Shown here: positions 5,298-33,899 of the stretch, one piece after another
How the letters are laid out: each line of letters starts with the position of its first letter
How positions within the stretch are numbered: the stretch's first letter is position 1
NCBI GenBank assembly: GCA_930367205.1
Contig: OV884011.1
Coordinates: forward strand, 44,901,754 to 44,965,753
DNA from: Acanthosoma haemorrhoidale
Lineage: Eukaryota > Arthropoda > Insecta > Hemiptera > Acanthosomatidae
Direction of reading: 5' to 3'
Length of the DNA: 64,000 bases
Position numbers and translations under genes: made by a program
Notes under the pieces: model-generated
What the model saw: only the letters and a program-made list of their open reading frames with translations
Databases searched by the model: none
What the model was told of the DNA's origin: nothing

Positions 5298-6508
5298 ATG
5301 ATCATTATGGAAATGTTACCTCCAACTTTAAGCTTGGTAATATTGCTGGGAAGTGCTCCATCTATTTTTTGTTATTCTAGCACTACAGAGAAGCTGGGTA
5401 ATTATAATCAGATTTTGTTTAACGGTAGATATACCAAATATTCAAGAAATAACCAATGTTGTTTAGCTAAGTTAAATCTGAAATAGTTTCAAATAATGCA
5501 ATCCATTGTTTTTTGTCATTTCTAGACCTCTCCATATTTGATGAGTGGCTTCCAAGCACCAAGCAACCGGCCTTGAATTCGCCATCTCTTCGTCCAGTTG
5601 CCCAACATGAAACGACTCCTTTCGCAGAGTACTCTCGATCATTATCACCTTTTCGTAGAAGCGATACCTCTTCGTACCCATCCTCTCTACCACTACCTCA
5701 TGGGCTCGGTCATCTGCCTTCCTATCCACTGATGCCATCAAACCAAGGTTTATCTGCTCCCTCGGCTCCTTTCTTTAGTCACAGCTATCTCAGTTCCTCT
5801 CCAGATTGGCCTGCACCAGCGCTTGTCTCTCACTCCCCCCAACAAGGTCAAAGAGCAAACCAATTTCCAGCAGCGAACGGTCAGCCGGCTTCATTTTATT
5901 CCCTTTTACCGCCTGTTTCATTATCTCCTCTTCCATCGTACCAGAGTAATTCTTATAATCCGTCGAATCCATTCATTTCCAATGTTCCACAATCTGTCCT
6001 TCCAGTGCAAGGACTACAACCACTTGATTCAATGGAAGCGAACCATTTAACACCGCCAAACGACTATGGAGCTTTAAATCCGGTTGCCTCATTTTCATTA
6101 AGAAGTAACGATCCGTATGTTTATTCACAGCCAGTAACTTCGTCTGTATCCTACTCACCTCCAGGTCAAATTGTAGCCTCCTTTATCCGCACGTATGATC
6201 TGCCCCTAGTTCCTCTGGTTCCACCTTCATTGTTACCGGTGGTTGATGGTTCATCGCCTGTTAATTATTTCCATCCCCAGTCTCCCGATGACTCTACAGC
6301 TGCTAGATCGTTTGCTTCATTTTCTATGCAACCTAACGCTCCTACCATACCTTCATTTGGGTTTCCCATAATTTCCAATCCTTACAATCCTTTTTCCATG
6401 ACGTATCATGGGTCACGTGCAACTTTTACCAATAATCTACCCTCTTCATTTTCCAACTATCAACGGAATCCAAGAATCAATAACCACCCAATTTATTACC
6501 ACAAGTGA
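5298..6508 (+). CDS. Secreted Pro/Ser/Asn/Tyr-rich low-complexity protein (two exons, 360 aa)
   Basis: Exon 1 is 5298-5397 and exon 2 is 5526-6508. The 128-bp intron is GT-AG and splits a codon after its first base (phase 1), giving an Asp at the joint (KL-D-LSIFDEW). Exon 1 gives a hydrophobic N-terminus (LSLVILLGSAPSIFC) of signal-peptide type. The mature chain has almost no Lys and many Pro, Ser, Asn and Tyr. It carries a loose repeat: ASFSLRSNDP near residue 220 and ASFSMQPNAP near 297. It ends INNHPIYYHK. ATTAAA at 6536-6541 is a likely polyadenylation signal. No known domain was recognised. I infer an extracellular structural or matrix protein because it shares the exon plan of the four genes downstream. 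The ATG at 5298 was chosen because upstream in-frame codons reach into the LTR without another ATG; ATGs three and five codons on are also possible. Confidence 0.8.
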
Positions 6509-6541
6509 AAATATCAATGTAGTGCCAGTGACTTTATTAAA

Positions 6542-9500
6542 TTACTTGGGAAGGTAATATTATATATATACGTTTATTTATTTATAGATGTACCTGTATA
6601 CTAATTTTAATATTCAAATTTAAATATAATTAATAAAATACCTAACAAAACTATTGGATTTATATCACCTGTATCCCCAACAGAAAGAACAATCGGCTCA
6701 GATGTAATATTTAAGCTATCCGAAGTACAATTCACACACACAGCTGCATCTTTTTTTTTTGTTGCGAATATGACCAGCTGTGTAATCAAACACTGTTGTT
6801 AGTTAGTCAGAGGACAAACACAGTGACCTAAATTTACACCAGTGACCGTGAATTGACAAATGTGACAGAAAATCCAAGTCTAAGTTTGTGTTTCTTGTAT
6901 GGATTACCACATCTTCGCTATGATATATAACTCTTAAATTATTTGTTATATAGACCTAGTTTCCTGCTATCCTTTGAAACTTAACTTGAGTTTTGTAAAT
7001 AAACTTAATTATTTCATAATATTCCCCCAATTCTTTAAAAATTTTCTTCTTACGAATTAATATATAAAAATATAGCCTGTAACCATATTCTAGTTCACTC
7101 TCCTCCTCTTGGACCTCCTCTTTTGTATCGGTCCCTTCTACCTCTTCTTCCCTCTCCTACCTGTGAAATTCTCCCCATATTTTTTCAGGTGAGCAGAATA
7201 AAGCCATCTGAAAACATTATGAATGAAAATGTTAAGTAGTAAGATGTAATTGTTACTACAATAAAGCACTCATATATCATAATGTATTGAAATAGTTTAA
7301 ATAAATGAATAATTTACAATTAAATATCATTTTAAAATATTTTATCTTTACATAGTGTAAAATTTTAGTAATCACATTATTTATGCTAATATTTATTAAG
7401 AATTATAATAGAAATAAACGCTTACCTCAGAAAAAAAAAGATAAACTCAAAGGTGTGACGGTCCAATATTGTCCTTTAATCTCACAGCGACCAAATGGTG
7501 GCAGGAACAAAGTTTAAAACACACTGAGGTAGAGTTGAAGAAAGGATCGGAAGGTACTGCAAATGTAAATAAAGAAACGTTGAAGCATGCTTGGACAAAA
7601 ATGACCCCGCACGCCCAGTTAAGGGTTAATGAGAGTATTTGTTACTTTCACGTTACATAGCCGTCTTTTACATCCCACCTCTCCCAGCATCTGACATTGT
7701 AAGGTACCTCATCTACCACATCGACTAACTTGGAACCCACACATGAGACCCAAATGACGAGAGCTAAATTGCTGTTTTGGACTACTATATAGACTTCTTA
7801 ACAGAAAATCTCACTTTTCAATGGAAATAAAAATATTGAGGCATAAGCCACCCTAAAATCACTACATACATGTGAATTCTGTGTTTCTCATTAAAATTCC
7901 TTAGAACCATAGTCAATGCTTTCTTCTATGTCACTAATAATAACCTCTATACCATCGTGTATTTGCTATCTAGTGCTAGTTTCTGACATTCCCTCTAAAT
8001 TTTAAAGGCCCTTGAAAAAGAACCCAAACATCCAAATCCCATAGCTAGGTAGCTATCTAGTCCTTATATTTACTTTAACCAACTGGGATTCTGGGGGCAT
8101 TTTTTTTTTAGTTTGGAGGGTTTACAGTTCTGGTGTTTTCTCTGTCACCACTAATACAATGTACCAGGATGTGGCAGGAAGGTTATTGTGGTGTTTCTCC
8201 CAAATTCTTGCTTAATCTTCCTTTGCTGAATCTTTCAGGGGAATTATTGAATGTATGCACATTGTAAATACATCATGAATGAATTAGTAAATGCAATATT
8301 TCAAATATGACATCAATGAGGTCATTTATCACAATTATTCATTGCCGTATCAGGGCAGATTTTAATGTTTTTTCAAGCAAAACAAAAATGTTTTAATTAG
8401 AGGCACTTTGGCATCGATCAATTAAATAATATCTTTTTGAATCAAACAATAAAATGAGACAAGATCACATAGCTATTACAGTTAGTTTTATAATTCAAAT
8501 ACTATCTATCTTATAATATATATTACTTAATTTGTTTACATTAATATAACCATACAAAGAATCAACCTCTTCTTAGCTATATAATAGGCGATAACAAATT
8601 GAGCAATAAATAAATATTTGTGAGATTTATTAATATAATTGTGATAAAATCTACACCAAGACCAATGTCGATAGCAGTCAACATGTGTTAACTGGACACA
8701 AATTAGAATATTAACAGTAAACATAAAGTAAAGACAATATGAATAATAAACTAACGACTAGTCTACAGTCTAATACCTCACCTACTGTACATAATTAATG
8801 AGGCAGGAAGTTTGCCTATGGCATATGTAATTATAGAGTGTGATTCACTATTTAAACACTATCAAAATGTGACAATATCTGATGTTGTCTATTGGAAGAA
8901 ATTCCTGGGGAACTTACAATGCATTATAAATATTAAGTTTTGTTGGAACGGTTTTACAATTACTTATATTAAAATGGAAATACGCAGTAAAAACATGAAA
9001 TCATCTAAGTTTTGAAAATATGTAAAGAATATTGAATACATGCTGGGGTGTGCCACAATTCATCATGTCTTCGTTAAAATCAATTATCCCTTGAGTCCGA
9101 AGATTCGGAATGTGAAGTGTAAAAAGACTCTCCTCTATTTAAGGGAGAAAAGCTAACATGCCTCCCATAATACCGTTTTTATGTTATTTTTTTTTTAGAA
9201 CTTGTTAAACAACGTTACGATGAACTAGTATCATCAGTAGTACAGGGATTACACATAACTGTTAATTATCATTGACAAGTTAATTTTGTACTGCCAAATT
9301 ATTAGCTATCGATAGCGCCTTAGGTCTGTAAACATAAAACATACTTGCTGTAGAAGTATATCTAGAGGTCAGTCTTTGATGTGTGGTGGAACTGAAATGG
9401 TGCACTGGTACATATTGCTTTGCACTACATAGACTATGCACTATGTAATAGCTAATATAAATAATGGTTAACACCAGAAAAATGTTGAATCACTCAAGGC

Positions 9501-9885
9501 TTCTAAGTATCATCAGTATAAAAAATTTTTTTACAATACACCTCAGATTTAAAGGGATGATTCCATTTCTCGGATCTACATTTGAAAAAGTCTACATATG
9601 CTGGGAATTGAACCTTCTTTAAAACAAATAAAATCTAGCAAATAAAAAACCTTCCATCTTTTGTTTTCTGAACATTTCTACTATGTTACTCGGAATTTAA
9701 TCTAAAAATCAACATATCCATTGGGTAGGGAGAAACAATAGCGGTATTAACTAAAATTTGAATTGATTTATCGAAGAAATCAATTAAGTCGAAACTGACA
9801 GCGACCAGAGCAGAAATCCAGCTGAACAAATAAAGCAAGTTATAAGTAGTCAACAGGTGTCAGAATCCTTGTAATTACCATACAG
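6542..9885. other. Intergenic AT-rich region
   Basis: No supported gene. At 7098-7165 there is a pyrimidine-rich stretch that reads as Pro/Leu-rich on plus (PPLGPPLLYRSL) and Arg/Gly-rich on minus (GRRGRRDRYKRGGPRGGE then stop). Either could be a scrap of a low-complexity secreted-protein exon, but neither has a fitting phase-1 acceptor. The rest is AT-rich with short homopolymer runs. Confidence 0.4.
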
Positions 9886-9894
9886 TATATAAAA
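9886..9894 (+). promoter_or_regulatory. TATA box of the Ala-rich repeat gene
   Basis: TATATAAAA lies 53 bp before the ATG at 9939. Spacing predicts transcription start near 9915 and a short leader of about 25 nt. Confidence 0.7.
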
Positions 9895-9938
9895 AGGGAA
9901 CAGTTCAATCTTGGTTATGGTCAAAAAGAAGGTCCAAC

Positions 9939-12753
9939 ATGTTACTAGCTGCAGTTTTGTGCGTAGCCCTGCTACAGGGGCCATCAGCATCAGCCATCGG
10001 CGCTTCTACTGAGCTTGGTATGTGAATTAATTCATAAGACGCCATAACAGTAGGCTGATACACTAAAACTAATACATATTATCCCTAATTTACAAAAACA
10101 TTCTGAAGAATTATTATTGATAATTAATGAGATAATTTCATTAAAATCAAAATGGTAGCAATTTTAACTAATCATTTATATTTTAACAGATTACGAAGTC
10201 CATACTCCACGTCTGAGTGGAATATATAGCACTCTCAAACCGACCCTGGCATCCTGGTTGGGAATACAGGATCCAGGAATCCACACTCCAGCTGTTACCG
10301 GACTTAACCCATGGTACCTGAGCCAAATTTCATCAGCGAATGCCGCTGCTCAGTCTGCTGCAAAGATGGCTGCTTTAAACGCTGCTAACATAGCAGCAGT
10401 TTCTGCTCCTGCAATTAGGAAGTGGTCTTCTTCACCATCAACATTTCTTAGATCACAACTTACTCCATACCTACACATTTCAGAGCTTAATGCACCTGTT
10501 AAAGCCGCCATTAGAACATACTCTTCCGAACCATCTCTAATTCTGAGTTCCCATCTTACCCCATCTGTCCATACTACAGTACCTGTTACAACCGATGACT
10601 CGTGGCTATCTGAAAATGTTGCCGCTGAAATCGCAGCCACCAATGCAATTAATCACGCTGCAACTCTTAATGCCGCCAATGAAGTAGCAACTAATACTGC
10701 TGCAAATATTGCTGCCATTAACACTGCTAATTTAGCTGCAATTTCTGCTCCTGCAGTTAAGACTTGGTCGTCCACGCCATCTTTACTTCTGAGATCACAT
10801 CTTACTCCATCTGTGCATGCTACCGTACCAGTTGTACACACTCCAGTAGCTGACCAATGTAACTCATGGCTAACTAATCAATATGAAGTAGGAAATACTG
10901 CCGCTTGCAATAGAGTAGCTGAAATTGCAGCAGTCAGTGCCGCCAAACATGCCGCAGCCATCGATGAAGCTAATAAAGCCGCGGTTGTTAGTGCCGCCAA
11001 TGAAATTGCGGCACATTCGGCTACTAATATTGCTGCCATTAACACTGCTGATTTAGCCGCAGTTTCTGCACCTACAGTTAGGGCTTGGTCTTCCGCACCA
11101 TCTTTACTTCTTAGATCACATCTTACTCCATCTGTGCTAACTAACTATTATGCACTAGCAAAGGGTGCCATTTCCAGTGGAACAGCTAAACATGCCGCCA
11201 TCAATGCCGCCAATGCAGCTGCTGCTATTAATGAAATTAGCCAAGCCGCAACAGTTGATGTTGTGAATCATGCCGCAGTCTTAAATGCTGCAAATCAAGC
11301 CGCAGCAATCAATGCCGCAAATAAAGCCATTGCTGTTGAAGCTGCTAATCGTGCTGCAGCCATAAATGCTGCAAATCATGTCGCAACAATCAATGCCGCA
11401 AATCAAGCCGAAGCCATCTTTGCTGCGAATCAAGCCGCTGCTAATCGTGCCACTGCTATTGATGCTGCTAATCGTGTCACAGCCATCAATGCTGCAAATG
11501 AAGCCGCAGCAATCAATGCCGCTGCTAATCATGCCAAAACTATCAATGTTGCCAATCAAGCCACTTCATTTGCTATTGCTAATCGTGCCGCAGCCATCAA
11601 TGCTGCAAATCAAGCAGCAGCAATCAATGCCGCAAATCAAGTAGCAGCAATCAATGCCGCCAATCAAGTTGCTGCTAATCGTGCCGCAGCCATCAATGCC
11701 GCAAATAAAGCCATTGCTGTTGAAGCTGCTAATTGTGCTGCAGCCATAAATGCTGCAAATCATGTCGCAACAATCAATGCCGCAAATCAAGCCGAAGCCA
11801 TCAATGCTGCAAATGAAGCCGCAGAAATCAATGCCGCTGCTAATCAAGCAGCAGCAATCAATGCAGCCAATCAAGCTGTTGCTAATCGTGCCGCAGCCAT
11901 CAATGCTGCAAATCAAGCATCAACAATCGCTGCCGCAAATCGCGCAGCAGCAATCAATGCCGCAAATCAAGCAGCAGCAGTCAATGCAGCAAATCAAGCA
12001 GCAGCAATCAATGCAGCCAACCAAGATGCAAATCAAGCAGCAGCAATCGATGCCGCAAATCAAGCAGCAGCCATCAATGCTGCAAATCAAGCAGCAGCAA
12101 TCGATGCCGCAAATCAAGCAGCAGCAATCAATGCCGCTGATAGTCAAGCAGCAGCAATCAAGGCAGCCAATCAAGCAGCAGCAATTAATGCAGCCAATCA
12201 AGCTGCAGCAATCAATGCAGCCAATCAAGCTGCTGCTAATCGTGCCGCATCCATCAATGCTGCAAATCACGCAGCAGCAGTCAATGCCGCAAATCAAGCA
12301 GCAGCAGTCAATGCCGCATATCAAGCAGCAGCAACCAATGCAGCAAATCAAGCAGCAGCAATCGATGCCGCAAATCAAGCAGCAGCCATCAATGCTGCAA
12401 ATCAAGCAGCAGCAATCAATGCTGCAAATCAAGCAGCAGCAATCAATGCTGCAAATCAAGCCACAGCTGTTAGTACCGTTGTTCAGGCAGTACCTACCTC
12501 AATTTTCAGTGACACACTAGTACGGTCAGTACCTAGAAGATTTTATCATCCATTACCTACCTCTGTAGTACGTACTAAACCTAGCAGGATTTATCACTCA
12601 GTATCTACTCCTTTTGTTTCATCACATCCAACTGTATCATACCCATCCAGATTAACTTCATCAGGTAATCCGTTCTTCGGAACTGCTGTAAGTCAGTACC
12701 TAAGAAGACCTTTTATCCGACCATCATCTGTTAGGCCTTTGTGGTCTTATTAA
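9939..12753 (+). CDS. Secreted Ala/Asn/Gln 9-residue-repeat protein (two exons, 880 aa)
   Basis: Exon 1 is 9939-10017 and encodes a signal peptide (MLLAAVLCVALLQGPSASA). A 172-bp GT-AG phase-1 intron follows, then exon 2 at 10190-12753, joined as TEL-D-YEVHTPRL. The first third (about residues 60-350) has four diverged modules with the core [KTA][WY]SSxPSLLLRSHLTPSV near residues 104, 137, 218 and 324, separated by Ala-rich spacers. Residues about 350-790 are a long array of a 9-residue unit, consensus A-A-A-I-N-A-A-N-Q (27 bp), with occasional insertions of AANRA type. The last 90 residues are repeat-free and rich in Pro, Ser, Tyr, Arg and Val, ending RPLWSY. AATAAA is at 12778-12783. Low-complexity frames in the other phases of exon 2 are shadows of this repeat. 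No family is recognised. An extended alpha-helical structural polymer is an inference from composition. Confidence 0.87.
11170..12465 (+). repeat. 27-bp coding tandem repeat array
   Basis: Degenerate tandem copies of a unit like GCAGCAATCAATGCCGCAAA followed by TCAAGCA, read as AAINAANQA. The most homogeneous part is 11930-12465, where synonymous variation is low. That suggests recent unequal exchange or slippage at the 3' end of the array. Confidence 0.85.
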
Positions 12754-12789
12754 ATGAACTACATGTCAAAAGTTAAGAATAAACTTTGT

Positions 12790-13492: not shown

Positions 13493-14068
13493 TTTAATTT
13501 TTAATTTAATGTGTAAAATATATTGTTGTGGCCACCTCTTAATTACGAATAATTAGAAGTTCCCCTCTTCTCGGCCCAGAAAATATCGATCCATGTTTCC
13601 TAATTTTAATAATAAAGCTTATGACGTCAGTCAGAGAGGGGGGGGGAGCTAGTGGGGGAACCATCCCCACCACGGCTGGCCTGCCTATATAAACGCCCTG
13701 CTTTAGGGCAAACGATAGAACGAACCGAACCGGCACTTAGAACACTGCTCTCTCTGCACTGGCGCTTGCGCCTCTACTCAAACCATGACCTTCTCATTCA
13801 ACTACCTCTGCATCTTTCTTTCCTAACCTCGCTATGTTTTAGTCCGGTGTTGTCAGACCCCAACACCTTCCTAGTGGGAATCTCTGCCTTCGTCTCGCTA
13901 AAACTAGCACCTCTCCCTCGCGGACGACGGTTGCCGTGGTCCTAAAAACTTTACCTAGTAGCGTCTCCTACGGCAATCCAGTATGCTTCTCTGCGGTTCA
14001 CACTCGCCTTTGGGATACGGACGGTTTTCGCCTACCCTTTAATTTTTAATAAAATGTGTAAAATATAT
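13493..14068 (+). repeat. 31-bp direct repeats bounding the LTR fragment
   Basis: Left copy 13493-13523 and right copy 14038-14068 both read TTTAATTTTTAAT, two variable bases, then AATGTGTAAAATATAT. The left copy ends exactly at the first base of the LTR. Confidence 0.8.
13524..14037 (+). mobile_element. LTR fragment (subfamily B), 3'-truncated, between 31-bp direct repeats
   Basis: Begins TGTTGTGGCCACC like the LTR at 56155 and matches it through the TATA box (TATATAAACGCC near 13686), the CTCGCTATGTTTTAGTCCGG block and the CACTCGCCTTTGGGAT block. It stops abruptly at 14037, before the last 240 bp or so of the LTR. It is bounded by near-identical 31-bp sequences at 13493-13523 and 14038-14068 (29 of 31 matching). 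Confidence 0.8.
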
Positions 14069-14487
14069 CAAATATGTAAATTGTACAACGTAAAATGCAG
14101 TTGAATTAATATTTTCTTCGTAGAAAAATTAGTATACATGCCGCTTTTTAATCACTTTTAATTTATAATTAAGGCTAAATTTATTTATAAATTAAAAACG
14201 TTACAATTAACCTCTAATAATAAACTTTTTCAACGATTAATAGTGTTAAACTGAATGCTCAAATATTAATAGACAGAATAAAACGTCTATTCACTTGACG
14301 ATTTTTAATTTTTCTTTTTAATTATAATTTTAATTGAGGTAGTAAAGAGTTACATTACTTAAATTAATTCTAACGACATTTATAACCTTCTTAAGAGAAT
14401 GAAAAGAGAGGAGAATATTTGCGCATGTCTCTAATTAGTCTCTAATAAGTCCTTACTCCAATCCTCAAATCGTATTGACAAACTGTT
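14069..14487. other. AT-rich spacer
   Basis: Very AT-rich; no coding signal or recognised repeat. Confidence 0.35.
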
Positions 14488-14541
14488 TTGAAACTAGGTT
14501 TTGAGCGTGTTAGGGTGAGAGAGGTGGTGACCACAGTGGTT

Positions 14542-14826: not shown

Positions 14827-15042
14827 AGGAGCTCGCATCCAAGCTGCCTTTGAATAGATAGCACCATTGAGGGTAACCATTGAGATATAATGAAAAAACT
14901 TCAATCGAAAGATCTCAATAGCTCCTGCAGGATCGTTTATCTAAAGGCTATTTGAAGAGGAATTATTCAGACTGTTTGGATTATTGCTTTCAAAAATGTA
15001 ATATAAATAATTCTTTGAAAGGAAAGGTTCCCTTTGTAACCT

Positions 15043-15236
15043 AATACAGCTAGAATAGATACTATTTACATTTTTTCAAACTTAACTAAAATAATTCAAT
15101 TTAATTAATACAGCTAGAATAGATAATATTTACATTTTTTCAAACTTAACTAAAATAATTCAATTTAATTAATACAGCTATAACAGATAATATTTAAATT
15201 TTTTCAAACTTAACTAAAATAATTCAATTAAATTAA
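15043..15236 (+). repeat. Three tandem copies of a 64-bp AT-rich unit
   Basis: Units start at 15043, 15107 and 15171, each beginning AATACAGCTA and containing TTTTTTCAAACTTAACTAAA. The first two are almost identical; the third has several changes. The array abuts the 3' end of a Jockey fragment. Confidence 0.85.
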
Positions 15237-15239
15237 TAC

Positions 15240-18455: not shown

Positions 18456-19640
18456 ATGAAGGTCTTAACATTATTTGTCGGCATCCTCATAGTGCAGTGC
18501 GCTTTTGCCGGCTCCTCTTCCTCTTCGTCCTCTTCTTCGTCTGAGGAGAGTGGCAGCAAGAAAAAAGGATCATCAGGCTCTTCTTCAGGTAATGAGTCCC
18601 AAAAACGGTGGTAAAACCCTCCAAAAATTGGTTTTGGACAAATAGTGTATTTATATATATTGTATGATGTGAATTATATATGAGATTCCATTTCTAAAAA
18701 AAAACGTTATTTACTTGCAGGTGGTAAAGTTGTGGAAGCTGAGGCAAAAAAGAGTGAAAAATCTAGCCAGTCCCAGAAGGTCAAAAAAGAAACTGTGACA
18801 GCTGTTGTGAAGGAACCCGAAGTTGTTATAGAGAAAAGGCCAAAAACTGTAGTGGTTGAAAGGCCAAGCCGAACAACCGTCGTTGAAGAGTCTACTCCCG
18901 AGGTGGTCGTCCGTAGACCAAGAGTGATCGAATACGTCACAGAGGATGACTTCCCTTACCCAGGATACCCAACTATTTCCAGATCGCCCTACCAAGGGTT
19001 ACCAGCCTATCGCCAAGTATACGGACCTTCATACTTACGGAGTCAACTCTCTTACAGGCAATCTCCCTTCGAGCTCGGACAAGCAGGGCTTCTTCCTCCT
19101 CTCTATCGCCCTTCTTATGCCTACCAACCAGCTGCTTCTTACCCATCATTGCCAATTAGGTCCCTTCCTTACAGCTACAGTTCCTCTTTTGTATCTCCAG
19201 GACCACTCGGATATCCTCAACTCCCAGTCAACATCGGCTCGCCCGCTGCTGTTTCTGTAAGTTATCCTCAAACCATTGTTCCACAAACTGTTGTTCCACA
19301 AACCTTCGTCCCTCAAACCGCTGTTCCACAAACTGTTGTTCCACAAACCTTTGTCCCTCAAACCGCTGTTCCACAAACTGTCGCATCCAGCCCACTCGCC
19401 AGTGTCAGAGTAGCAACCGCCCCAGGACCTTCCCAAATTAGTTATGCCATCAGCCCCCTTGGCGTTGCACCATCAGTCAGTTATACAACTTCTTCAGTTC
19501 CTTCAGCTGTTTCTGTACCTTCTCCTCTTAGTGTAAGAACAACTCTTGGCTCTCCATTAGCTTATTCTTCACTTTGCTCCAGACTTCTTTCATCATCAGT
19601 CCTCAGGTCACTGCCAAGTTACCATCCCTGTTTATTTTAG
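18456..19640 (+). CDS. Secreted protein with poly-Ser, Lys/Glu and Pro/Ser/Tyr regions and VPQT repeats (two exons, 350 aa)
   Basis: Exon 1 is 18456-18588 and exon 2 is 18721-19640, with a 132-bp GT-AG phase-1 intron joining at Gly (SSSG-G-KVV). The signal peptide is MKVLTLFVGILIVQCAFA. The mature N-terminus is a run of ten Ser, then EESGSKKKGSSGSSS. Residues about 48-120 are charged with a Val/Lys/Glu/Arg pattern (VVIEKRP, VVVERPSR, VVVRRPR). Residues about 120-225 are Pro/Ser/Tyr/Leu-rich. Residues about 225-262 repeat VPQT[VFA], and the C-terminus is Ser/Val/Pro-rich. AATAAA is at 19687-19692. No conserved domain was recognised. The charged block followed by a Pro/Tyr block suggests a cross-linkable matrix component; this is an inference. 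Confidence 0.86.
19275..19385 (+). repeat. 15-bp coding repeat (VPQT)
   Basis: Units of GTTCCACAAACTGTT type (VPQTV, VPQTF, VPQTA) repeat about eight times. Groups of three alternate in the order V, F, A, so a 45-bp higher-order unit is visible. Confidence 0.85.
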
Positions 19641-21438: not shown

Positions 21439-22333
21439 TGTAGCGACCGCTAACTACATAAGATAAATCACCCTATATTCTCTTGTATATATATTGTAAA
21501 CAAATGTAAATAACATTATCAAAATATAAATCATTGTAAATGTGGTAAACAATGAGCATGCAGCTGTGAGCCAATTAGTTATATGAGCTGGGGCACCAGC
21601 TGCCAGTAGCAGGTACTAAGCGACCCAACCCGCCGAGAGGCCCTTACCCGGGTCACGTATCGGTGACACATCTCTTTGTCAGAGAACAAAGAAAACCACA
21701 TACTCAACTGGCATTGGGTACTACAAAACCAGTGCTGATTGGCTACTGACGAAGCCAGCTGGGTATTTAAGACCGGCGATTTTGTGCCTGTATATCATTC
21801 TCCTGGCAACTAACTGGCTCGTGGCTGCTCTGATGTAAACTCTGAAACTTGGCTTCTTCATTATGAAAACCTCAGCATCTTTCTCTCTCCTCACCTCGCT
21901 ACGTTTTAGTCCGGCGTTGTCAGACCCCACACCTTCCTAGTGGGAATCTATGCCTTTGTCTTGCTAAATCTAGCACCTCCTTGGGAGAGACCTCTCCCTA
22001 GTGGACAACGGTTGTCGTGGCGCTGCAAGCTTACCAAGCAGTGTTCCTCACGGCGATTCAGTCTGCCTCTCTCCGGTCCACACTCGCCTTTGGGATCCAG
22101 ACGGATTTCGCCTACCCTCAGATACCGAGTGTAATTCGTGGTCATTCCAAGACCACACAAACTACCTACACCACCTACCCTATACCTCTTCTCCTGAACA
22201 TAGTGCATTGTCGGGGCACATACCTATCAAAAATGGAGTCAGATAGTAAGACCGTCATGAAACGATTGTCCAGGTTATAAACTTAATCAACCCTCACTTC
22301 GTCACCAGGGCTGGTGACTTAGGCACCCCCCTC
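21439..22333 (+). mobile_element. Solo LTR (subfamily A), 3' end shortened
   Basis: Begins TGTAGCGACCGCTAACTACA, the same terminus as the LTR at 5251. It continues with the shared 3' half (TTTTAGTCCGGCGTTGTCAG, CACTCGCCTTTGGGATCC, CCCTCACTTCGTCACCAGGG). It stops at GGCACCCCCCTC without the terminal ACCCGACA of the other copies. GTCAA flanks both sides (21434-21438 and 22334-22338), which may be a target duplication. The missing end implies a small deletion or a variant terminus. Confidence 0.78.
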
Positions 22334-22575
22334 GTCAATTAAATCACCCTTTTATGATAAGAAAACTGTTGTTTCATCAAGTTTTGAGGTATGCTAAATG
22401 AATACCAAGTTAGAAAGATTTCATCAGGCACATTATTTTTTTTGTAAAAGTTAATTATTAGGTAAAACATTCTCATGTTATTTGTACTTTGGTAGAATTT
22501 TTTTTTGTTGAAAAATTTATTAAAAAAAATAAAACGCTGCATAATTGCGAAGGAATGACCATGCATTAAAAACAA

Positions 22576-22882
22576 CTGTGAGAGCAGTAATTTTTTCAAG
22601 GAATTATACTTATAAATTTGTTGCTTCTCTAGGAAGTCAAATGCTTGTATTTCTTCATATAAGCCACTAGGCTCAAATGAAGTAAAATTGTGAGTAGCAG
22701 ATGTGGATCCAGCAGGAGAGGCAGTGGCAGGGAGGAAGCAGTGGTAATGGTGGAGGAAGTGGATGTGGTGGTGGAATTGGATCTAGTAGAGGAAGTGGCA
22801 GTGACTGTGAGAGCATGAGTCATTTTGTCAAGAAATTATACTAAAAGTATGGTTGCTTTTTTAGGAAGTCAAATGCTTGTAT
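22576..22882 (+). repeat. Direct repeat of about 75 bp flanking a Gly/Ser-coding scrap
   Basis: 22576-22650 and 22804-22882 both run from CTGTGAGAGCA through a shared AATTATACT to TAGGAAGTCAAATGCTTGTA, with scattered differences. The offset is about 231 bp. Confidence 0.65.
22700..22844 (+). pseudogene. Scrap of the Gly/Ser-rich secreted-protein gene
   Basis: From 22728 the plus frame reads QGGSSGNGGGSGCGGGIGSS and on to a TAA at 22842-22844. About 50 bases (22753 onward) match the exon-2 start of the Gly/Ser/Tyr gene near 27890 with few changes. Immediately upstream the Gly/Ser pattern (GSSRRGSG) is in another frame, so a frameshift is present. No signal exon was found nearby. I infer a partial, decayed duplicate located 5 kb upstream of the intact gene. 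Confidence 0.65.
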
Positions 22883-22895
22883 GGACCAGCTGGAT

Positions 22896-23353: not shown

Positions 23354-26183
23354 TGAGGCTTATTTTTTTATCAAATTTAATTAAACATAAAAAAAGTCAC
23401 AACTAGTATATTTCACCCAATAAAATAACTAAACAAATGATTTCATATTTTTTTGTTGTTTTTTTCCCCAACAAATTTTTCTCAAAAACGGTGGCTAATG
23501 GAATTTGTTTAACTTTGGGTTCAAATCTAGCACACTTAAACAAATCAGGCAAAATTTTCCAAGGGAGAGAAAAAATTTATAGCTCATAATGTGCCCCGCG
23601 TTTAATTTAAATGCCACATAGAATATTTGAAAATAACCACATGTTACCTATTCCTTTAGGGCAGTTGCGAAATTAACTTGTGTTTCTGTGGTTTGCTGAT
23701 AGCATTCATTGTCCTTGAATATTTTAGGTGGTCAGCACTTGTGCAAATACACCTGCCAATATTTGTTTATTAATTTTTATTCAACACAGATGTCAGTTAA
23801 TGTACATTTTGAATGACATTCATATCAACAAAATTTTTAAAAAAATTATAAATAAATACATAATTATTCTGGAAAGTAAACCAAATGGCAAATATAATAC
23901 ATAAATAGAGGGGTTTCTACAATAAAAGACAAATGTTTTTTATTCTCTGAATATACCTCTCAAAAAAATAATCTATTATGCAATATTTAATTACATGTTA
24001 TACATATCCCGTTAGCATGTAACTTCAAATGTCTTCAATTTGTGCAATCCCCCTCCCTTCTTGAGTCCTGACATTTATTGATATCAACAACAGAAATCAG
24101 GTATTATTTTTGTACAAGCTATTTACAATTTTTATGACTTGTAAAGATGATTTTCAGTAGCAAGGATGGTTTAAAAAATAAAATAAAGTTTTTATATTTA
24201 GTTTTAGAGTAGGTTCTTAACAACAATTATTCAAGTACCTCTTGTGAGTCCCACACTTATGCCTCTCAATATAGTTTCTTCACTTTTAACACCTTTATTC
24301 ATTGTTTACATATGTATTTTTTAAAAGTATAATTTATTAAGTACAATTGAGGTAGACAAACATTTTTTAAATAATGAAAAAAAGTGCCGAGTTTACCGGT
24401 CATTGGGTCAGCTAGTAAAGGACTGCAAACAAGTTGGATTCAAGCAATAAAAAAACTTCAAACAATAAAACTTGTTATATTGAATCAATGAATTTTCCCA
24501 ACAACAAGTAATCACTGTAGTGTTTCAACATCACAACATGAAAGGTAACACATTTAAAATAAGGTTAACACACATTCAAAGTGAATAATTTTAACAATTG
24601 TAAAAAAATATGTGGTGCATACACATTTAACAATTTTATCTTATTCAGTACATTGATGATTACTGCTGATTTCTATAAGCTTGGAGACGACAGTAAAGGG
24701 GGCTATTTCAGCTTAGATTAAAATTGCCTACTAGCTGCTGTTGTAGATAGTTGACGAAATAAACAGATTTATCAAAAAAATACTAAGATTACCCTGCAGT
24801 TACAGTTGTTCAAAAAATTGATTTTGCTGAATAAAACCCAATAGAAATTTAATTAAAATATTCTTCTCTTCTTCTTTATGATCCTCCTTAGGGCTTTTTA
24901 GTTTGAATCGTTGATCTAGGCGAGCTTTTTTGCTATATGTTGCCGGCGCCATCATGGCACTTCAATGCTTATCTTTTTGCTCACCGATTCTAGTCATGTG
25001 GACCATCTAAGGGTAATGACACATGTGTTGGTTTTGATTGAAGTGTTATTGAGACGGTATCATGACAAACGTATCGGTATTCGGTAGAGGTGCTTTGAAC
25101 CCCTAACCGAATCGGTTTTCCTGCCAGGTGGTTCAGATCCTTCGGTCCGTTATCATTCGTTCACTAAAGTTTAATGACCCCTCGACTTGATTTTTCCTCT
25201 CAGATAGCCTTGGTCAAAATTGAATGTGTGTCATTGCCCTAAGGCACACTCATCTACTTTCCTATTGGTGTGCCTATCATGAACTTTCTGGACAATCTGT
25301 TCTCCAAAGATCCTTCAGCTATTTCTTCTCTAAGTTATTCCTCAGGGCTGTGATTTCCAGTTTATCTCATTTATGTCTGATGTGGAAATGTCTCTTATAC
25401 TTTTTCCTTCTACTATCCGGACGTAGTACACTTCAAAGGCAATTATTCTGCTCAAGGGATTATTCAGAGTTATCCAACTAATTCAATAAAAGGTATAATG
25501 GGTTAAGTTGAATCGAGGCATACTCTAAAATTCATAAAATAATACCTTTTAAAATTAGTGTCAATATTACCTTGAGTGAGTTAAGAACACAATAGTAGGA
25601 ACATGATGTTTTACCATGTTGCATGGTAAAAATTCATGACTCCATAAAACCTTGGGGAAAATGGCTATTACTCAGAGTTTTTGAAGTGCAGTAGGGTTTT
25701 TGTTGTTGATAGATAATTATTCCTGTTTACAGCCAGCCTTAGACCAACAGTCCCCAGTCTAGAATTAAGGAAAAATTCTAAAATTGAGAAAATGCAATCA
25801 TTTGAAGATCTTTCTGGCGACCACCCAACCTCAAAGAGTAAACAAGATACCTGATGTTCAAATAGGTTAAGGGAACTTTGATCTATGTAGTTAGACATCT
25901 CCTTAGAGTTATTATTGGAAGGAGTAGATCCTTTTAAATTTAACCATTGGGCCTCTTTGGATTGTGATAGAACAGATAACAGGTCAATCTGTATCTAGTT
26001 AACCTCATTCAACATGGCTTATGTCAACACTTTTTAAAAGTGAATACAGATATCTATTTGTAGACCTACCCAAATAAATGCACATAGCTAATAATGCATG
26101 AAGCATAAGGAACCTACACTAGGATATGCATGATGTATAAGTGTACACAGGTGTCAGTCAAACTGTCCAATGCAATAGTTTTG
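23354..26183. other. Long intergenic AT-rich region
   Basis: No supported gene. About 24940-25450 is less AT-rich and has short frames but no recognised homology; it may be an old repeat. Confidence 0.35.
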
Positions 26184-26191
26184 TATAAATA
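26184..26191 (+). promoter_or_regulatory. TATA box of the Gly/Ser/Tyr gene
   Basis: TATAAATA lies 44 bp before the ATG at 26228, predicting a very short leader. Confidence 0.65.
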
Positions 26192-26227
26192 CTATAGAGA
26201 ATAGGTCAAGAAGTACCTCAACCAGAG

Positions 26228-28670
26228 ATGCAGAGGAACACACTTGTACTCTTGCTGTGCGCAGCTTGCTTCCAAGCTACCCTAGCCACTTACGGTGAGT
26301 ATGAATGCCATGTCTATATCATACCAAAATTCAAAATTTACTGGAATTTAATAATTTATTATAAATAATATTTAGGGATAAAGATTTTAAATAAATATTA
26401 AGTTATATTTGTAAAAACTATTAAGCACAATAAAACTGAATAGATCAGGTGACTTATTTCTCAGTTTTTTGGGGGGTTTTCTCTGTTTTTTTAAAAAATC
26501 ATTTCTTAATCAAAACTTAATCTATTCGGAACAGTTTAAATTTCAATAATCTACCATATTCTTTGTTGCAGTTTGTTTATTTGAAGTTTAATATAATAGC
26601 TCACTAAGCACTAGCCTGAATACTTACCATGATTCATGGTAGTATAGTATAGATTCATGAAGGAGGCAGAAGAATAGCCAAACTTTCTCTTTCCTGACCT
26701 ATTAATTCTGAATTTACTCTTGTAATTAGAGCATAAATGATTTCAATTTATTATTTATAATTAAATCTATATAGGGAAAATTATAATATGATATATCACC
26801 ATAATACATTGTAGGGTACAAATATTCTATTTAAAAGCAAATTTTGGATTTAATTCAGTACTTGTAAAATAAACCATTTTCTTTTCGTTCAGTTTATTTC
26901 CTTTTTTTTTTTTTTTATTATTGGTCCTGTATGGCAATAGATTAAATTTTAGTAAAAATTAGAAATATTTTTGACTTTTTATAAAATTGAATCTAAAGTA
27001 TAAAACAAAAAATACTCTTGCATTATTATGATCTATTTACACACTTTTATTTACGGACAAAAATTAGGATAAATGTGAGTATAATAAAATTGCTGAATTG
27101 TTATAGGTCCTTATAACAATTATAAATTATTAAAAAATTATGGAGTCTTGGTATTAAAATTTTACTAATCATCCCACCTTGTAAACCCTTGTTATTAAAT
27201 AATACAAATAACTGTAATCAGGTAGTAAACATTTGTGAATCATATGTTCAATTAAAATTCAAAGCCATCATTATTTAATCCTTGTAATTATATGGAAATG
27301 AGGAAGAAGTGTTTTTATCTTTGGTAGGAGATGAAAATATACAACATAATTAGTAGAAACTATGGTAGATAAGTAGGTTATTGGATCATTGGAAATGCAT
27401 GATGTTTTTGAATTCTATGAAGTGAGTCTTAGATGGGGAGTGCTAAATAATGGGTTAATAATAATACTGTAAAATCGCATTCATTTTTTCCCAGTTACCA
27501 GCAATTAACATCAACTCACTGTTTGCTATTTCCCATAGAAAACACAAACAAAGATACATTATACCATTGCAAATCTTTTTGTTTCAAAGACAACAAAATT
27601 ACTTGCATGGTTTAGTCCAATAAAATTAATAGTAAGTTAAACACAAATTTCTTCCACCTCTTTTCCATACGATGATATTTTTTTTAATAATTAAGTGTTC
27701 TTGGCAAATTTTATTTTTTAAATAAGGTTCTATGGTCATATTTATTTTCAGAAGCTCTGCTCTAATGAATACTTCTATTATAGGGTATGAAAAGGTAGCC
27801 AAAAACCAAGGTAGCGGATGCGCTTCCAGCAGTGGAAGCAGTGGCAGCCAAAACTGTGGTTCTGGAAGCAATGGCAAAGCTGTGAGTGGAGGAAGTGGAT
27901 ATGGTGGTGGAAGTGGATCCGGTAAAGGAAGTGGCAGTGGATCTGGTAGCGGCAGTGGTTATGGTGGTGGCAGCGGTTATGGTGGTGGCAGTGGTTATGG
28001 TGGCGGTACTGGTAGTGGAAAAAGCAGTGGATCAGTAAGCAATTGTAACACTGGAAACGGAGGAGGCAGTGGTTATGGTGGCGGAAGTGGATCTGGTGGC
28101 GGAAGTGGATCTGGTAGCGGAAGTGGATCTGGTGGTGGAAGTGGATACGGTAGCGGAAGTGGATACGGTAGCGGAAGTGGATCTGGTGGTGGCAGTGGTT
28201 ATGGTGGCGGTACTGGTAGTGGAAAAAGCAGTGGATCAGTAAGCAATTGTAACACTGGAAACGGAGGAGGCAGTGGTTATGGTGGCGGAAGTGGATCTGG
28301 TGGCGGAAGTGGATCTGGTAGCGGAAGTGGATCTGGTGGTGGAAGTGGATACGGGGGCGGAAGTGGATACGGTAGCGGAAGTGGATCTGGTGGTGGAAGT
28401 GGATACGGCGGTGGAAGTGGATATGGTGGTGGTAGTGGATCCGGTGCTGGAAGTGGATATGCTGGTGCCAGCAGTAGTGGGAAAAGCAGTGGATCTTCAA
28501 GTAGTCAAGATTGTAACACCGGAAGTGGAGGAAGCGGTGCAGGCAAAGGATATGGTGGTGGAAGTGGATATGGTGGAGGCAGCGGCTATGGTGGAGGCAG
28601 TGGTAGTGGTTTTGGCAGTGGCAGTAGTAGCGGATCTGGCAAGGGAAGTTACGGATCAAAAGGCTGCTAG
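26228..28670 (+). CDS. Secreted Gly/Ser/Tyr-rich protein with sparse cysteines (two exons, 317 aa)
   Basis: Exon 1 is 26228-26294 and encodes MQRNTLVLLLCAACFQATLA, a clear signal peptide. A 1,489-bp GT-AG phase-1 intron follows, then exon 2 at 27784-28670, joined as TY-G-YEKVAKN. The alternative acceptor at 27752 would hit a stop after four codons, so 27783 was chosen. The mature protein is almost entirely GSG, GGGSGYG and GSGSG units. A 68-residue segment is tandemly duplicated (about 96-163 and 164-231). Cys residues are rare and spaced: about 34, 46, 110, 178, 266 and the last residue. Three of them are in the motif CNTG[NS]GG. AATAAA is at 28700-28705. It resembles Gly-rich silk, cuticle or cement proteins only in composition. 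The spaced Cys could cross-link chains; this is an inference. Confidence 0.87.
26295..27783 (+). other. Intron of the Gly/Ser/Tyr gene
   Basis: Donor G|GTGAGT, acceptor TATTATAG|GG. Extremely AT-rich with poly-T near 26895. It is much longer than the other four introns (73-172 bp). No recognised insertion explains the length. Confidence 0.75.
28001..28408 (+). repeat. 204-bp coding tandem duplication
   Basis: Copies at 28001-28204 and 28205-28408 are nearly identical and in frame (68 codons each). They begin TGGCGGTACTGGTAGTGGAA and include the AATTGTAACACTGGAAACGG (NCNTGN) block. Confidence 0.9.
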
Positions 28671-28705
28671 ATCTTTGTCACATCAATTGCAAAAGAAATA
28701 ATAAA

Positions 28706-31700
28706 AACATTTAAAATTTATATTGGCTTTCAGATAAGAAATGAAAATTTATCAATACATTCAATAATACATCTCCATACATTAAAAAGGAAAATTTGCA
28801 ACAATATTAATAAAGTGCTAGTAAAAGAATGATGGTTGTAATTATTGCATTTTTGTAATTCAAATATTTATTGGATCCCTAAATACTATTACTATTTCAA
28901 ACAGTAATAGTAGAAGCCCTATACTGCCCAATTCCCTAGAACCCTAGACCTTAATAAGAATATATTGATTATTCTTACTAAAATATTCTAAATAAATAAC
29001 TCTTAAAATTAACAATCCCAAAACAAAATATATTAATCATCAAGTACTCACTTGATTTATGAAAATTAGCTTATGGGAAATATACCTTTTTCAACTCTGG
29101 AATAAAAAAAATCCATCCTTCATAAACCTAAAATATAGTTCTATAATAACTGAAAAATGTATACAATTATTAGACTTCACCCATTAAATCAACATAAAAA
29201 TAATATTACAACTGATTGAAATATTTTCACCACATACCACTAGATTACAAGTTTTAAATTTAAATTGATACATTTAATACATATCTTTAATTATTAATCA
29301 AGTGATGTTGAGTGCTTATAGGAGGGCTTGCCTATATCATTCAAAGTCAGTCTCTACAATCAGCATTCCTCCACAAGATAACCAATGCTCTCTTCTAAAG
29401 TACAACCAAAACTCCTCTGTGACCTAAACATCCTTTTTATCCAAAATCTAGTCACCTTCTGTTACCAGAATTTATATTCCGTCAGGGGGCCTGATAACCT
29501 GATCCCTATACGAATACGATGCTCTGATCTCATCCTTGGTAATCAAGAGTGTTGGATGAGATTGCTTCTTAACCTATAATCATTGTGTTTACAAGTAAGC
29601 TCATATAGCTACAAGTGAATTGGTTTGGTTAATGAGCTATATTATATATTGTAATTATTATGCCCCCTCCATAAAAAATTAACAAGAAAATAACATCATA
29701 ATACTGCTGATAATACTGTACTATCATAAATGAAATTAAAAATATTGTACATAGTTTAATAAATAAATCAACTGATCTTTAAAAAAATTCAAGAATAAAT
29801 TTGAAGGAGCTAAGATGAGATTTAGTGGTTTGAAGGAATAACTGTGTAGGAGACAATCTATGAAGTAAAAACACCAAAATAAATAAAATCTAATTGATTA
29901 CTCTAATTTCTTTATTTGATGATAAAACTTTGATAAAAAAAAAACCAAAACTTCCCGAAAGAAAAATATGTAAATTAGATCCATGCTAATACAAACTCAC
30001 CCTAACTCGGAATTTATTCATTTTAGAAATTTTACAGGTAAATGTGATGTATTGATCAATAATTAGTGACTATTATTATTACAAATTTCAGACTTCCTCA
30101 GAATTCTCTGGGAATGTTCACCTACCTGGACTATATTAGTCAAGGGTTAAGATCAGATAACTGAATTGCTAAATTTTCAAGCGATGCTGGCAGTTCCCAA
30201 GAGTACTGCTTCCTGAACCCTGTGAAGTATTATCTTCGTCAGTTCCAGCATCCAGATGGATTCCAGATTGTCCTTTGGGATCAATCCATTTCAGGAAATG
30301 ATGATGGAAAAATCCAACAACTCTCCAATCTATAGATTTGCCTTAATTCTCCTGTGAAATCCTGGAATTTTTGTTTTTTTTCAGCTACGACATTTAGCAA
30401 TTTATTTGTCATCCTTAGACAAATTATTATTAACCAATAACTTTGCACTTTTACACTAATATAATATAACATTTACCCAGAGACAATTGTTATACAAATA
30501 GGTAGATTCCTAAAGACTGTCAGTAAATGAAGAGACTGGGCAGTACTGTGGAAGAATCATAAAATAACATTTTTTCCTGATCTCGAGAAAACCAAAATGA
30601 AAGTTCTAAACCTCAATCTTCGTGCACGTGACAGGTGATTTTCTAAAGAGTGTTAAGCCATGGGATTTTGTATTTGTTACCTGCCCCAAATTTTAATCCA
30701 AACCAAAATAATTCGGCAATTCATGGTTCTTACTTGGAAAGTTTAAGAACTGCCTATTCCGTTGGAAAATACTTGTGATTTATTTATTATACTTATGTGA
30801 TTAATTTATATTAGTTGGGTTGAAAGGTTATGTAGCAAATACTAATAATTAGTAACAAACAGGTATCGAAACAGTTTCACTGCAGTATAAAATATAACAT
30901 ATGAATATCAGTAACAATCATAAATATTTTATTGTACTGTTTATTAGAATAAATAACATGCATGATTGAAAATATTGCTGAAACAACATTAGATATCTCA
31001 CCTCAGTTGCGAAAGGATTTCTAATTTTCATAAGTAGAGGCAAACTAAGGAAATAATATTTTATATTTAAGAAGAGTAGGTTGTACAAAATACAAATATT
31101 ACCTAGTTGGGAAGGAGTATACTACTTACTGTTTTAAAATTTGAGACACTAGTAGTTTCAGAATTATAGTGATGTTTATTCAAAAGAACACAATCCTTTT
31201 TTGAGACATCAATAATTTTTACACAGCTTTAAGCTATAAGCATAATATAGTATGGCCGTTGGCTCAAGACTTTTCACTTTGGAGGATGTGTAGGATTTAT
31301 TCATATTTCATTGCATCAAACCTACTATTTTATTAATATGTAATTTATTATGATTTCGTTCATGAAAGACGGAAGACAAGTTTGTCATTAGGCCAATCAG
31401 ATGCGATTTCAAAGGGTTGAAAATCTTTTTTCTCTCCATATTAGTCGTTGGTTAAGATGTTGAAGGAAATAATAAATATTATAATCAAGCAATAGACTTA
31501 ATTGGGTCTTAGAGATCAGTAGTTTAATAGCAAGATTGGCGACATATTATACTTCAATAAATATTATGTTTAAACACAGCTAATCTACAACTCAGTAAAA
31601 CAGATATTTAATTAATCATAAACTGTCTTCTCATAACTCTCTTCTTTACAAATATATAAGCAAACATTCAAAATAGTATGTTTTTATTTGAATTATTTGT

Positions 31701-33521
31701 AGAATATAAGGTTGACAGTATTTGCACAAGTGAAGTTTGCATATAAATATTTTCTGATAATGCCATGAATTCAAATGTAGTGATAATGTATTTATTTCCA
31801 GCAAACAAATGAGTGTGATGTAATTGATTGAGTTTGTTGACAATAACATCTTTGTCCAGCTAGCTTTAGCATTTCTTCACTTTATATGAAGAGGAAAGCT
31901 ATGCGATTTCGTTTACAAAGGCTCAAAACGTAAATAATGAAGTCATTTTTGTTTAATTTCTCAATCAATATTGTATTTTAATTTATTATACCATAGTGAT
32001 ATTTTATTTTGGATAGTAATTAACTTTTATGTATAATAATAAAGACAGACAAGCAATTAACCATGGTCTTGGCCTTAATACAGCTTGAAAATAGGACGCA
32101 GGTGGCTCAGGCTTCAAGGACAAGCCATATAACTCTCGATGTCGGAGAGACAGAATAAGAGTTAATGCAGGGAAAAGCCAGGGGTCGGGTCCAGGATGAC
32201 TCGTTAAATAGGAAGGCAATAGGACACTTGCCCTCAATACCCTGACTGACTTCTATGGAGGACATGCTGGTTGGAGCTAGAGGAGAAGACATCTTTTGGG
32301 CTGAGGTGTAGAACATTGTATTGAATTGGTTCTCCCTGTTTCACAAGCATTTTCTCTAAAGGGGGTGGGTCTAGTAGGGGTTATCTCAGTCTCGTGAGGG
32401 TAGATGAGTAGCTACTTGAATAATGAAGCCAAACCTGGTTTAGAAAGCCAAAATAAAGTTTGAGAGGTAATAGTATAGCGCCAACCTAGGCCTTATTTTT
32501 TCATCTTTTCATGAGGTGCAGGCTAAAGTAATAAATTAGTTAAAATGCGACAATGATAATAAATAAAAATATGCCTCACAATGCTGTAAAAACTGTAAAC
32601 ACAATATTAACTATTTTAATGATTTTTTCATGATTATAATTTGCTACATCATAAAAAAAATCAAATTATTTAAGTTTATTTTTATGGTGGAGTTTTTCAT
32701 CGCGTGTAACCTTCAAGAAAAAGTTCATATCTCTAGATCAAACAAGGTACTTAAAATCTACTGGAATAAACCTTCAGAAAGGCAAATAGAAAGGATAAAA
32801 AGTTCAAAATGAGGCCTCTAGAAAAAATAATAGACTTTCAGATAAATACTTGTTTACAAAAAGATCATTGCTATAGCAAGGGGGAGATTAGGGGGTATAT
32901 ATCCACCCTCTTTAAACATGTTTAATTATAGTAATTATTGGTTAAATAGAAGCAATAGTCATAGGGTTCAAATTTTTATTTTTAAATGACTTCCATCAGT
33001 TTTAAAAAAAATATTGATATTACTGTTGTTTTCAGAGGATTAACAAGACTTAATAGTTTTAGATTAACTAGAATTTCTAAGAGTATAGCTAGTTCCATGG
33101 ATGTCAGTGGGTACAGGGCGTTATGATTTTTTTAAAATACTTCTGAATTGAAATTAGGTTTTGGGCTCAAATCCAAGCTCATTTTTTCCCATTAACCAAT
33201 AATTATAAAAATTCACACCAATCAGATCACATGCCACAACTAATGTTTACTATTATTTCTTTTTTTTTACATTTTTTCCCCAAAGAAAAATAATACTAAT
33301 TCTATATTGAAAATTCTTTGCTACAGTGTCTGTAAAGATCCAAAAAGAATTTTATGTATATATGGCATGATGATTTTTTTTCAGAAACTCATTTGCATCT
33401 TAAATAGAGGTTCATATTATAATTTGAATTTGTAATGCAGTTCAATGTGCTCTTTAAAGAAAAAAAAAATTGTTGTCCATTAGTACGTAAGTAGGGTTAA
33501 TATTTGTACAAGTGTCAATTG
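28706..33521. other. Long intergenic AT-rich region
   Basis: No gene supported. About 30090-30330 and 32050-32400 have more even base composition and broken frames on both strands. They may be decayed coding or repeat sequence, but no family was recognised. Confidence 0.35.
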
Positions 33522-33529
33522 TATATATA
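33522..33529 (+). promoter_or_regulatory. TATA box of the short Gly/Arg gene
   Basis: TATATATA lies 68 bp before the ATG at 33590, predicting a leader of about 35-40 nt. Confidence 0.6.
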
Positions 33530-33589
33530 GCTGGGGGAATATCTGAACGACAAGAGTGCCCATTCTTGTTTTCAGAAAATTACACCACA

Positions 33590-33899
33590 ATGAAAAAGAT
33601 AGCCGTGTTTTTTCTCTTGATCATCTGTGTCCAGATGTGTACAGGATTTTTGAGCTGTAAGTCGTTTATCATTAATTTAAAGGACATTTTATTTTAGGTT
33701 GTTTAAAAAAAAAAAAATTTGTTTTCTAGGGCTCAAAGAGAAGAAGGAAGAGAAGAAGGCGTCAAAGGAGAAAACTAAAATAGTATACGTGGATAGACCG
33801 GTTGAAACCAGCAAAAGTTCTAAAGGATGTGGAGGGGGTGGCAGAGGGGGTGGCAGAGGTGGTGGTCGAGGGAGATCAGGAGGTCGGGGTAGGTGTTGA
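33590..33899 (+). CDS. Short secreted Lys/Glu then Gly/Arg-rich protein (two exons, 78 aa)
   Basis: Exon 1 is 33590-33656 (MKKIAVFFLLIICVQMCTGF, signal peptide) and exon 2 is 33730-33899. The 73-bp intron has donor GTAAGT, acceptor TTTTCTAG and phase 1, giving a Trp at the joint (LS-W-LKEKKEEK). The mature chain has a charged block (KEKKEEKKASKEKTKI), a linker IVYVDRPVETSKSSK, then GCGGGGRGGGRGGG ending GRGRC. The linker resembles the charged region of the VPQT-repeat protein (VVVERPSR). A terminal Cys is shared with the Gly/Ser/Tyr protein. AATAAA is at 33999-34004. It could be a basic linker or RNA- or polyanion-binding secreted peptide. It is too short for a domain call. Confidence 0.75.

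Follow-up and report, generated by a model that had tools for sequence, protein, structure and literature searches.

The two-exon plan, in which a short signal exon is followed by one repetitive second exon, is a known design, found in the Sgs glue genes and in the fibroin heavy chain gene, FibH. The published accounts, drawn on here in excerpt, describe for the Drosophila Sgs family (Sgs1, Sgs3, Sgs7, Sgs8 and Eig71Ee) two coding exons, a short first exon, a phase-1 intron and a signal peptide, with a long repeat region in Sgs1 and Sgs3 (PMC10835880). FibH of moths and caddisflies is mostly single-copy, with two exons, the first of 39-45 bp and the second of 7-29 kb, and conserved terminal domains; in moths and butterflies the protein is rich in Ala, Gly, Ser, Pro, Gln and Asn (PMC11241164). 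Mosquito CPR cuticle genes form tandem arrays and encode low-complexity flanks; 55% have two exons and 93% a TATA box with initiator, in 86% of the intron-bearing genes the signal peptide is interrupted, first coding exons measure 3-36 nt, and introns are mostly in phase 0 (PMC2259329). Here, a cluster of five gene models, G1 to G5, is compared with these systems. It lies in a 64,000-nucleotide stretch of the Acanthosoma haemorrhoidale genome (contig OV884011.1, positions 44,901,754 to 44,965,753), termed the window, and coordinates are counted from its first letter.

The cluster probably holds at least four genes, and a fifth is likely. The explanation favoured here, rather probable though not secure, is that these genes, at least four and probably five in number, are lineage-specific, encode secreted structural proteins, and would be co-regulated and contribute to one extracellular coat or adhesive of a hemipteran, probably a heteropteran. 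The exon plan is shared with Sgs and fibroin heavy chain genes, yet membership was found in none of the families compared.

Gene models and exon plan

5298..5397, plus strand: G1 exon 1, signal peptide, 100 nt, ending in phase 1; alternative ATG at 5313
5526..6508, plus strand: G1 exon 2, Ser/Pro-rich, 326 codons plus stop, without tandem repeat; G1 totals 360 amino acids
9939..10017, plus strand: G2 exon 1, signal peptide, 79 nt
10190..12753, plus strand: G2 exon 2, Ala/Asn-rich, 853 codons plus stop, 9-residue repeats of the AINAANQAA type; G2 totals 880 amino acids
18456..18588, plus strand: G3 exon 1, signal peptide plus poly-Ser, 133 nt
18721..19640, plus strand: G3 exon 2, Ser/Pro/Val-rich, 305 codons plus stop; G3 totals 350 amino acids
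26228..26294, plus strand: G4 exon 1, signal peptide, 67 nt
27784..28670, plus strand: G4 exon 2, 294 codons plus stop, 6-residue repeats; G4 totals 317 amino acids
33590..33656, plus strand: G5 exon 1, signal peptide, 67 nt
33730..33899, plus strand: G5 exon 2, Lys-rich, then a Gly/Arg tail with Cys as last residue, 55 codons plus stop; G5 totals 78 amino acids

All five models are on the plus strand, and their introns (128, 172, 132, 1489 and 73 nt in G1 to G5) are GT-AG and in phase 1 in every case, positioned after residues 22-44 and beyond the likely signal-peptide cleavage site. The original prediction of a 67-133 bp signal exon, a GT-AG phase-1 intron and a single second exon is thus true of each model, and its picture of secreted, low-complexity genes clustered on one strand is supported by the sequence. 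As an observation on five genes it stands in the main, with the reservations that G1 is not repetitive and that G5 does not rise above chance in the scan given below. A second possible acceptor of G4 lies at 27727, and many internal acceptors in G1, G2 and G3 also pass that scan, which leaves acceptors unfixed.

How repetitive, and how alike, are the encoded proteins? Tandem arrays detected with Tandem Repeats Finder (TRF) occupy a large part of exon 2 in both G2 and G4; G5 has two short arrays, and G3 exon 2 a single one (19265-19381) of 5-residue repeats of the PQTVV type. No array was found in G1 down to a TRF score of 30, and the predicted repetitive second exons are therefore present fully in G2 and G4, in part in G3 and G5, and not in G1. 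G1 is Ser/Pro-rich and G3 Ser/Pro/Val-rich; G2 is 33% Ala and 12% Asn, arranged in 9-residue units; G4 is 49% Gly and 29% Ser, and G5 consists largely of Gly, Lys and Arg. Past the likely signal peptide, the numbers of Cys and Tyr are 0 and 19 in G1, 3 and 14 in G2, 2 and 20 in G3, 6 and 20 in G4, and 2 and 1 in G5. The C-termini read ...PIYYHK, ...RPLWSY, ...YHPCLF, ...GSKGC and ...GRGRC in the order G1 to G5, Cys being the last residue of both G4 and G5. An AlphaFold model of G2 exon 2, made from the single sequence, has helix through most repeats, with a mean predicted local distance difference test score of 46.9, too poor for a fold search, and gives a hint that G2 may be mostly helical.

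The mature proteins had been described as unlike one another. This applies to all pairs except G4-G5, the sole significant pair, which aligns via Gly tracts (equalled by 0 of 200 shuffles). A KTxxVxxxRP-like stretch had suggested that G3 and G5 are kin; the idea was dropped, as 61 of 200 shuffles were as good and, with trimmed pieces, 16, 18 and 22 of 200 were. The shared signal exon that had been proposed is shared in plan and not in sequence: of ten pairwise comparisons G2-G4 was the best, with 6 of 200 random pairs as high and with promoter sequence as the matching part.

Coding evidence and a shared upstream element

Spliced models were sought by a scan for a signal exon, an intron and a second exon on both strands, with six first-order Markov windows as null. 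In the second, loosened form of the scan, which required a cleavage-like site, a second exon of at least 100 codons (stop counted) was found for four open reading frames (ORFs). These are G1 to G4, all in phase 1 and on the plus strand; the nulls gave 0, 1, 0, 0, 0 and 1. At a minimum of 150 codons with looser sites there were six ORFs, G1 to G4 and two phase-2 models that run into ORFs of a long interspersed nuclear element (LINE), and none in the six nulls; G2 accounted for 33 phase-1 and 11 phase-2 models at this setting.

Neighbouring repeat units were compared in the stated frames against a null of random substitution, pairs below 60% identity being dropped (30 of 46 kept for G2, 26 of 41 for G4). 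Synonymous changes made up 49 of 115 changed codons in the 27-nt units of G2, 35 of 63 in the 18-nt units of G4 and 14 of 22 in the 15-nt units of G3, a level reached in each case by 0 of 1000 simulations; one long G4 pair has a weak excess (9 of 24; 16 of 1000). The excess supports the reading frames of G2, G3 and G4 and reveals selection on the frame between their repeat units. When each gene was scored on the synonymous preference learned from the other four, G2 and G3 fitted (0 of 1000 nulls as high).

The 130 bp before each ATG were also compared, and the following elements were located.

9841..9893, plus strand: G2 promoter module, TATAAG..CAGGTGTCAG..TATATAAA
18368..18373, plus strand: CAGGTG at -88 of G3
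26136..26189, plus strand: G4 promoter module, TATAAG..CAGGTGTCAG..TATAAA
33508..33529, plus strand: G5 upstream ACAAGTGTCA (-82) and TATATATA (-68)
4206..5251, minus strand: solo-long-terminal-repeat-like (solo-LTR-like) repeat, its edge 46 bp upstream of the G1 ATG

The sequence ACA[AG]GTGTCA (ACARGTGTCA) is common to three of the five genes, at -86 in G2, -81 in G4 and -82 in G5. With one mismatch and six bases of slack allowed, a 10-mer of any kind was shared as widely in 2 of 300 sets of five positions drawn at random. Its core, CARGTG, is present in four of the five, as CAGGTG in G2 (-85), G3 (-88) and G4 (-80) and as CAAGTG in G5 (-81); a comparable 6-mer, AT-only words excluded, occurred in 1 of 300 random five-position sets. 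Co-regulation, which the original prediction had put forward without this element, thereby gains some direct support from an element that precedes four of the five genes at a similar distance. TATA-like words lie at -53/-51 in G2, -44 in G4 and -68/-66 in G5, and at -52 in G3 as a weak TATATT that fails a stricter pattern. The claim of a TATA-like box at 44-68 bp in four genes accordingly holds if the G3 word is allowed, and not under the stricter pattern. In G1, the only TATA-like word is at -101 to -97, within a repeat. The arrangement TATAAG-N-CAGGTGTCAG-N-TATA is found in G2 and G4, from which the pattern was built, and has no other match in the window. AGGTGTCA alone is not enriched there, with 31 matches within one mismatch vs 42.8 expected; a third exact copy is at 35131-35138 (plus strand), with no gene recognised behind it.

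Known systems and competing explanations

The models resemble the Sgs genes in having two coding exons, with a signal-peptide exon that closes in a phase-1 intron in all five. They differ in that the Sgs intron, as given in the excerpted account, cuts the signal peptide at residue 10 (a 28-bp exon in Sgs1), and in that the C-terminal IRXC[L/V]C motif of Sgs is absent from all five C-termini. Sgs belongs to a different insect order, and the likeness is one of gene plan. FibH, as excerpted, is similar in its short signal exon and one repetitive second exon; here the first exons are longer (67-133 nt vs 39-45 bp), and the genes are smaller and encode five dissimilar proteins. No Pfam family reached its cut-off for G1 to G5 (G2 and G4 as exon 2). 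Matches below threshold, of G5 to YxzE (8.4e-5, 23.9 bits, cut-off 40), to GRP (1.1e-4, 23.2 bits, cut-off 30) and to five weaker families, and of G3 to one family at 0.36, are taken as composition, as is the one PDB chain matched by G2 across its repeats (9e5c_0q, 4.7e-10). Rfam gave no match at gathering score, and no tRNA was found.

What material might these genes build? Each signal peptide would be removed in the endoplasmic reticulum and the low-complexity mature proteins secreted jointly. The long Ala/Asn chain of G2 may form a helical rod; G1 and G3 would supply Ser/Pro-rich chains, and G4 (Gly/Ser/Tyr-rich) and G5 (Gly/Arg-rich) chains that both end in Cys. From their association an extracellular coat or adhesive could result, in which Tyr and Cys would be the likely sites of cross-linking. 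Most of the genes might be driven in one tissue by the sequence ACARGTGTCA, or by the CARGTG core alone, placed before a TATA-like word. A multi-component extracellular material, as originally proposed, seems reasonable from composition and by analogy with the Sgs and FibH gene plan, although this does not extend to naming the material. As a guess, egg coat or egg glue ranks first, salivary sheath second and cuticle third.

Heteropteran chorion and egg glue proteins are products of follicle cells that end up in the eggshell or the glue. The proteins Rp30 and Rp45 of the true bug Rhodnius are of low complexity. They are its major eggshell (chorion) proteins, and hardening of the chorion by dityrosine is described in the same excerpted source (PMC13409908); their likeness to the present proteins is by description only. 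Stink bug salivary sheath proteins come from the principal salivary gland and are present in the sheath, according to an excerpted account (PMC3935659). The mucin of stink bug swollen crypts combines a domain rich in Pro, Thr and Ser with a chitin-binding domain, as excerpted (PMC9095716), and no chitin-binding domain was found in the Pfam scans of the five proteins. A more far-reaching possibility, less likely than not, is that the cluster is a clade-restricted, co-regulated set encoding a whole multi-part extracellular material of a true bug. Such a set would have no described relatives, would be bound by a promoter module and not by homology, and would have lost members to decay and transposons. 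If the genes are co-expressed, the components of an insect coat, glue or sheath not yet described could be read off from one locus, a case of components marked by a shared promoter element, not by protein similarity. The locus would also provide markers for orphan low-complexity genes, which homology searches tend to miss.

Several points weigh against the favoured explanation. A first, strict scan found six signal-exon-plus-donor candidates, and with a second exon of at least 100 codons the only ORFs it reached were those of G3 and G4; the donor threshold was loosened after this result, and the Markov null does not mimic low-complexity DNA. At a minimum of 50 codons there were 28 ORFs in the window against 18, 7, 22, 8, 30 and 14 in the nulls, so the spliced model of G5 is not above chance, and the case for it comes from composition and promoter instead of the scan. 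In the diverged 185-nt repeats of G2, compared twice, synonymous changes were not clearly in excess (16 of 69 codons; 158 of 1000), and codon preference lent no support to G1 (292 of 1000), G4 (998 of 1000) or G5 (807 of 1000). The promoter motif was spotted by eye before its test, and equal sharing is less rare at other settings (63 of 300 for 8-mers, 14 of 300 for 9-mers, 74 of 300 for 10-mers with two mismatches). The shared element is missing upstream of G1, whose promoter contains a repeat that may have displaced an older promoter. Finally, no homologue of the cluster proteins was found in the searches made, which covered G1 and G3 and did not include insect genomes. For G3, none of 7993 candidates scored from a large protein collection reached E<=0.001, though the list may have been taken up by poly-Ser words. 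Pattern matches of G3 in genome_contigs and viral_contigs (104 and 18) and of G1 in genome_contigs (29) yielded no relative by tblastn, but these collections hold prokaryotes and viruses, so that their negatives say little.

Could the genes instead encode cuticular proteins, i.e. clustered, secreted, TATA-driven, low-complexity components of the exoskeleton? The tandem arrangement, TATA-driven promoters, low complexity and two exons are in keeping with the mosquito CPR genes as excerpted above. G2 also carries SAPAV/HTPAV-like words, which we take to resemble cuticle repeats; words of the form AAP(A/V) are named in that account. The CPR first exons of 3-36 nt mostly interrupt the signal peptide and are for the most part followed by phase-0 introns, whereas here exons of 67-133 nt end in phase 1 after it, and neither the R&R chitin-binding consensus nor any other cuticle family appeared in the Pfam scans (G2 and G4 as exon 2), which makes a cuticular origin unlikely. 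Chance adjacency of unrelated secreted genes is judged improbable to a like degree. Introns near signal-peptide cleavage sites are commonly in phase 1, and phase is therefore weaker as evidence of kinship; the signal exons have no sequence in common, and the mature proteins align only in Gly tracts. Against mere proximity stand the upstream element at a similar distance in four of five genes, the single strand and the low complexity of all members, and no other host gene was recognised between them among the listed ORFs.

Less probable still is a decaying locus, in which some members are pseudogenes or are spliced otherwise than modelled. The solo-LTR-like repeat at the G1 promoter would fit such a history, as would two features given below (the decayed Gly/Ser stretch near 22.7 kb and the LINE that adjoins a Gly-rich exon at 40.1 kb), the want of codon-preference support for G1, G4 and G5, and the chance-level G5 model. 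The second exons of G1 to G4, however, are open for 294-853 codons, and G2 to G4 retain their synonymous excess between units. A set of genes for a coat or adhesive remains the favoured explanation.

Transposable elements and other features of the window

Transposons and introns mark the window as insect DNA. A jockey-like LINE has ORFs at 767-3456 (minus strand), with Pfam RVT_1 and Exo_endo_phos domains, and a second LINE copy at 40375-42933 is flanked by 10-bp target duplications (40365-40374 and 42934-42943). In a search with the LINE protein, 6651 of 7944 scored candidates had E<=1e-30. Among the best 120 of these, which are listed, the closest is 76% identical and labelled Pantoea sp. 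Taur, and two others are at 74-75%; next among those named come Ranatra chinensis, a heteropteran (56-58%), and then aphids (about 48-52%). A reverse transcriptase-like protein with the Pantoea sp. Taur label is among host sequences misassigned to bacteria, according to an excerpted account (PMC7643828). The Pantoea of the stink bug Taurocerus edessoides has been sequenced and named SoTe (PMC8032781, in excerpt), and 'Taur' presumably stands for this host. Judged from this one transposon, the host is probably a heteropteran and possibly a pentatomid. Because the LINE points to Heteroptera, leafhopper brochosome proteins and spittlebug froth (PMC10607721, PMC10889267) were set aside, on this ground and not on a sequence comparison.

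Two stretches may be remnants of further cluster members.

22698..22844, plus strand: decayed G4-like Gly/Ser stretch, with 18-nt units at 22748-22798
40134..40352, minus strand: possible sixth exon, Gly-rich, 72 codons, adjoining the LINE insertion

The first has a 24-residue ungapped match to G4 (0 of 200 shuffles as good); the G4 matches of both stretches are of Gly-rich composition. The second has AG just before its open stretch, compatible with phase 1, and the LINE copy about 20 bp beyond, possibly within an intron of a sixth gene. A signal exon for such a gene at 44497-44437 (minus strand) was dropped, as it is at noise level in the loosened scan.

The solo-LTR-like repeat of about 1 kb is present, whole or in part, at five places (4206-5251, 21439-22334, 13804-14038, 56458-56931 and 44717-44783), and the copy beside G1 has TG at one end and CA at the other. 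A Tc1-type transposase was recognised by Pfam near 59.2 kb. An AT-rich 64-bp unit is present in three tandem copies at 15042-15239, and a direct repeat of 235 bp, 94% identical between its copies, is found at 53444-53678 and 55905-56139, 2.46 kb apart.

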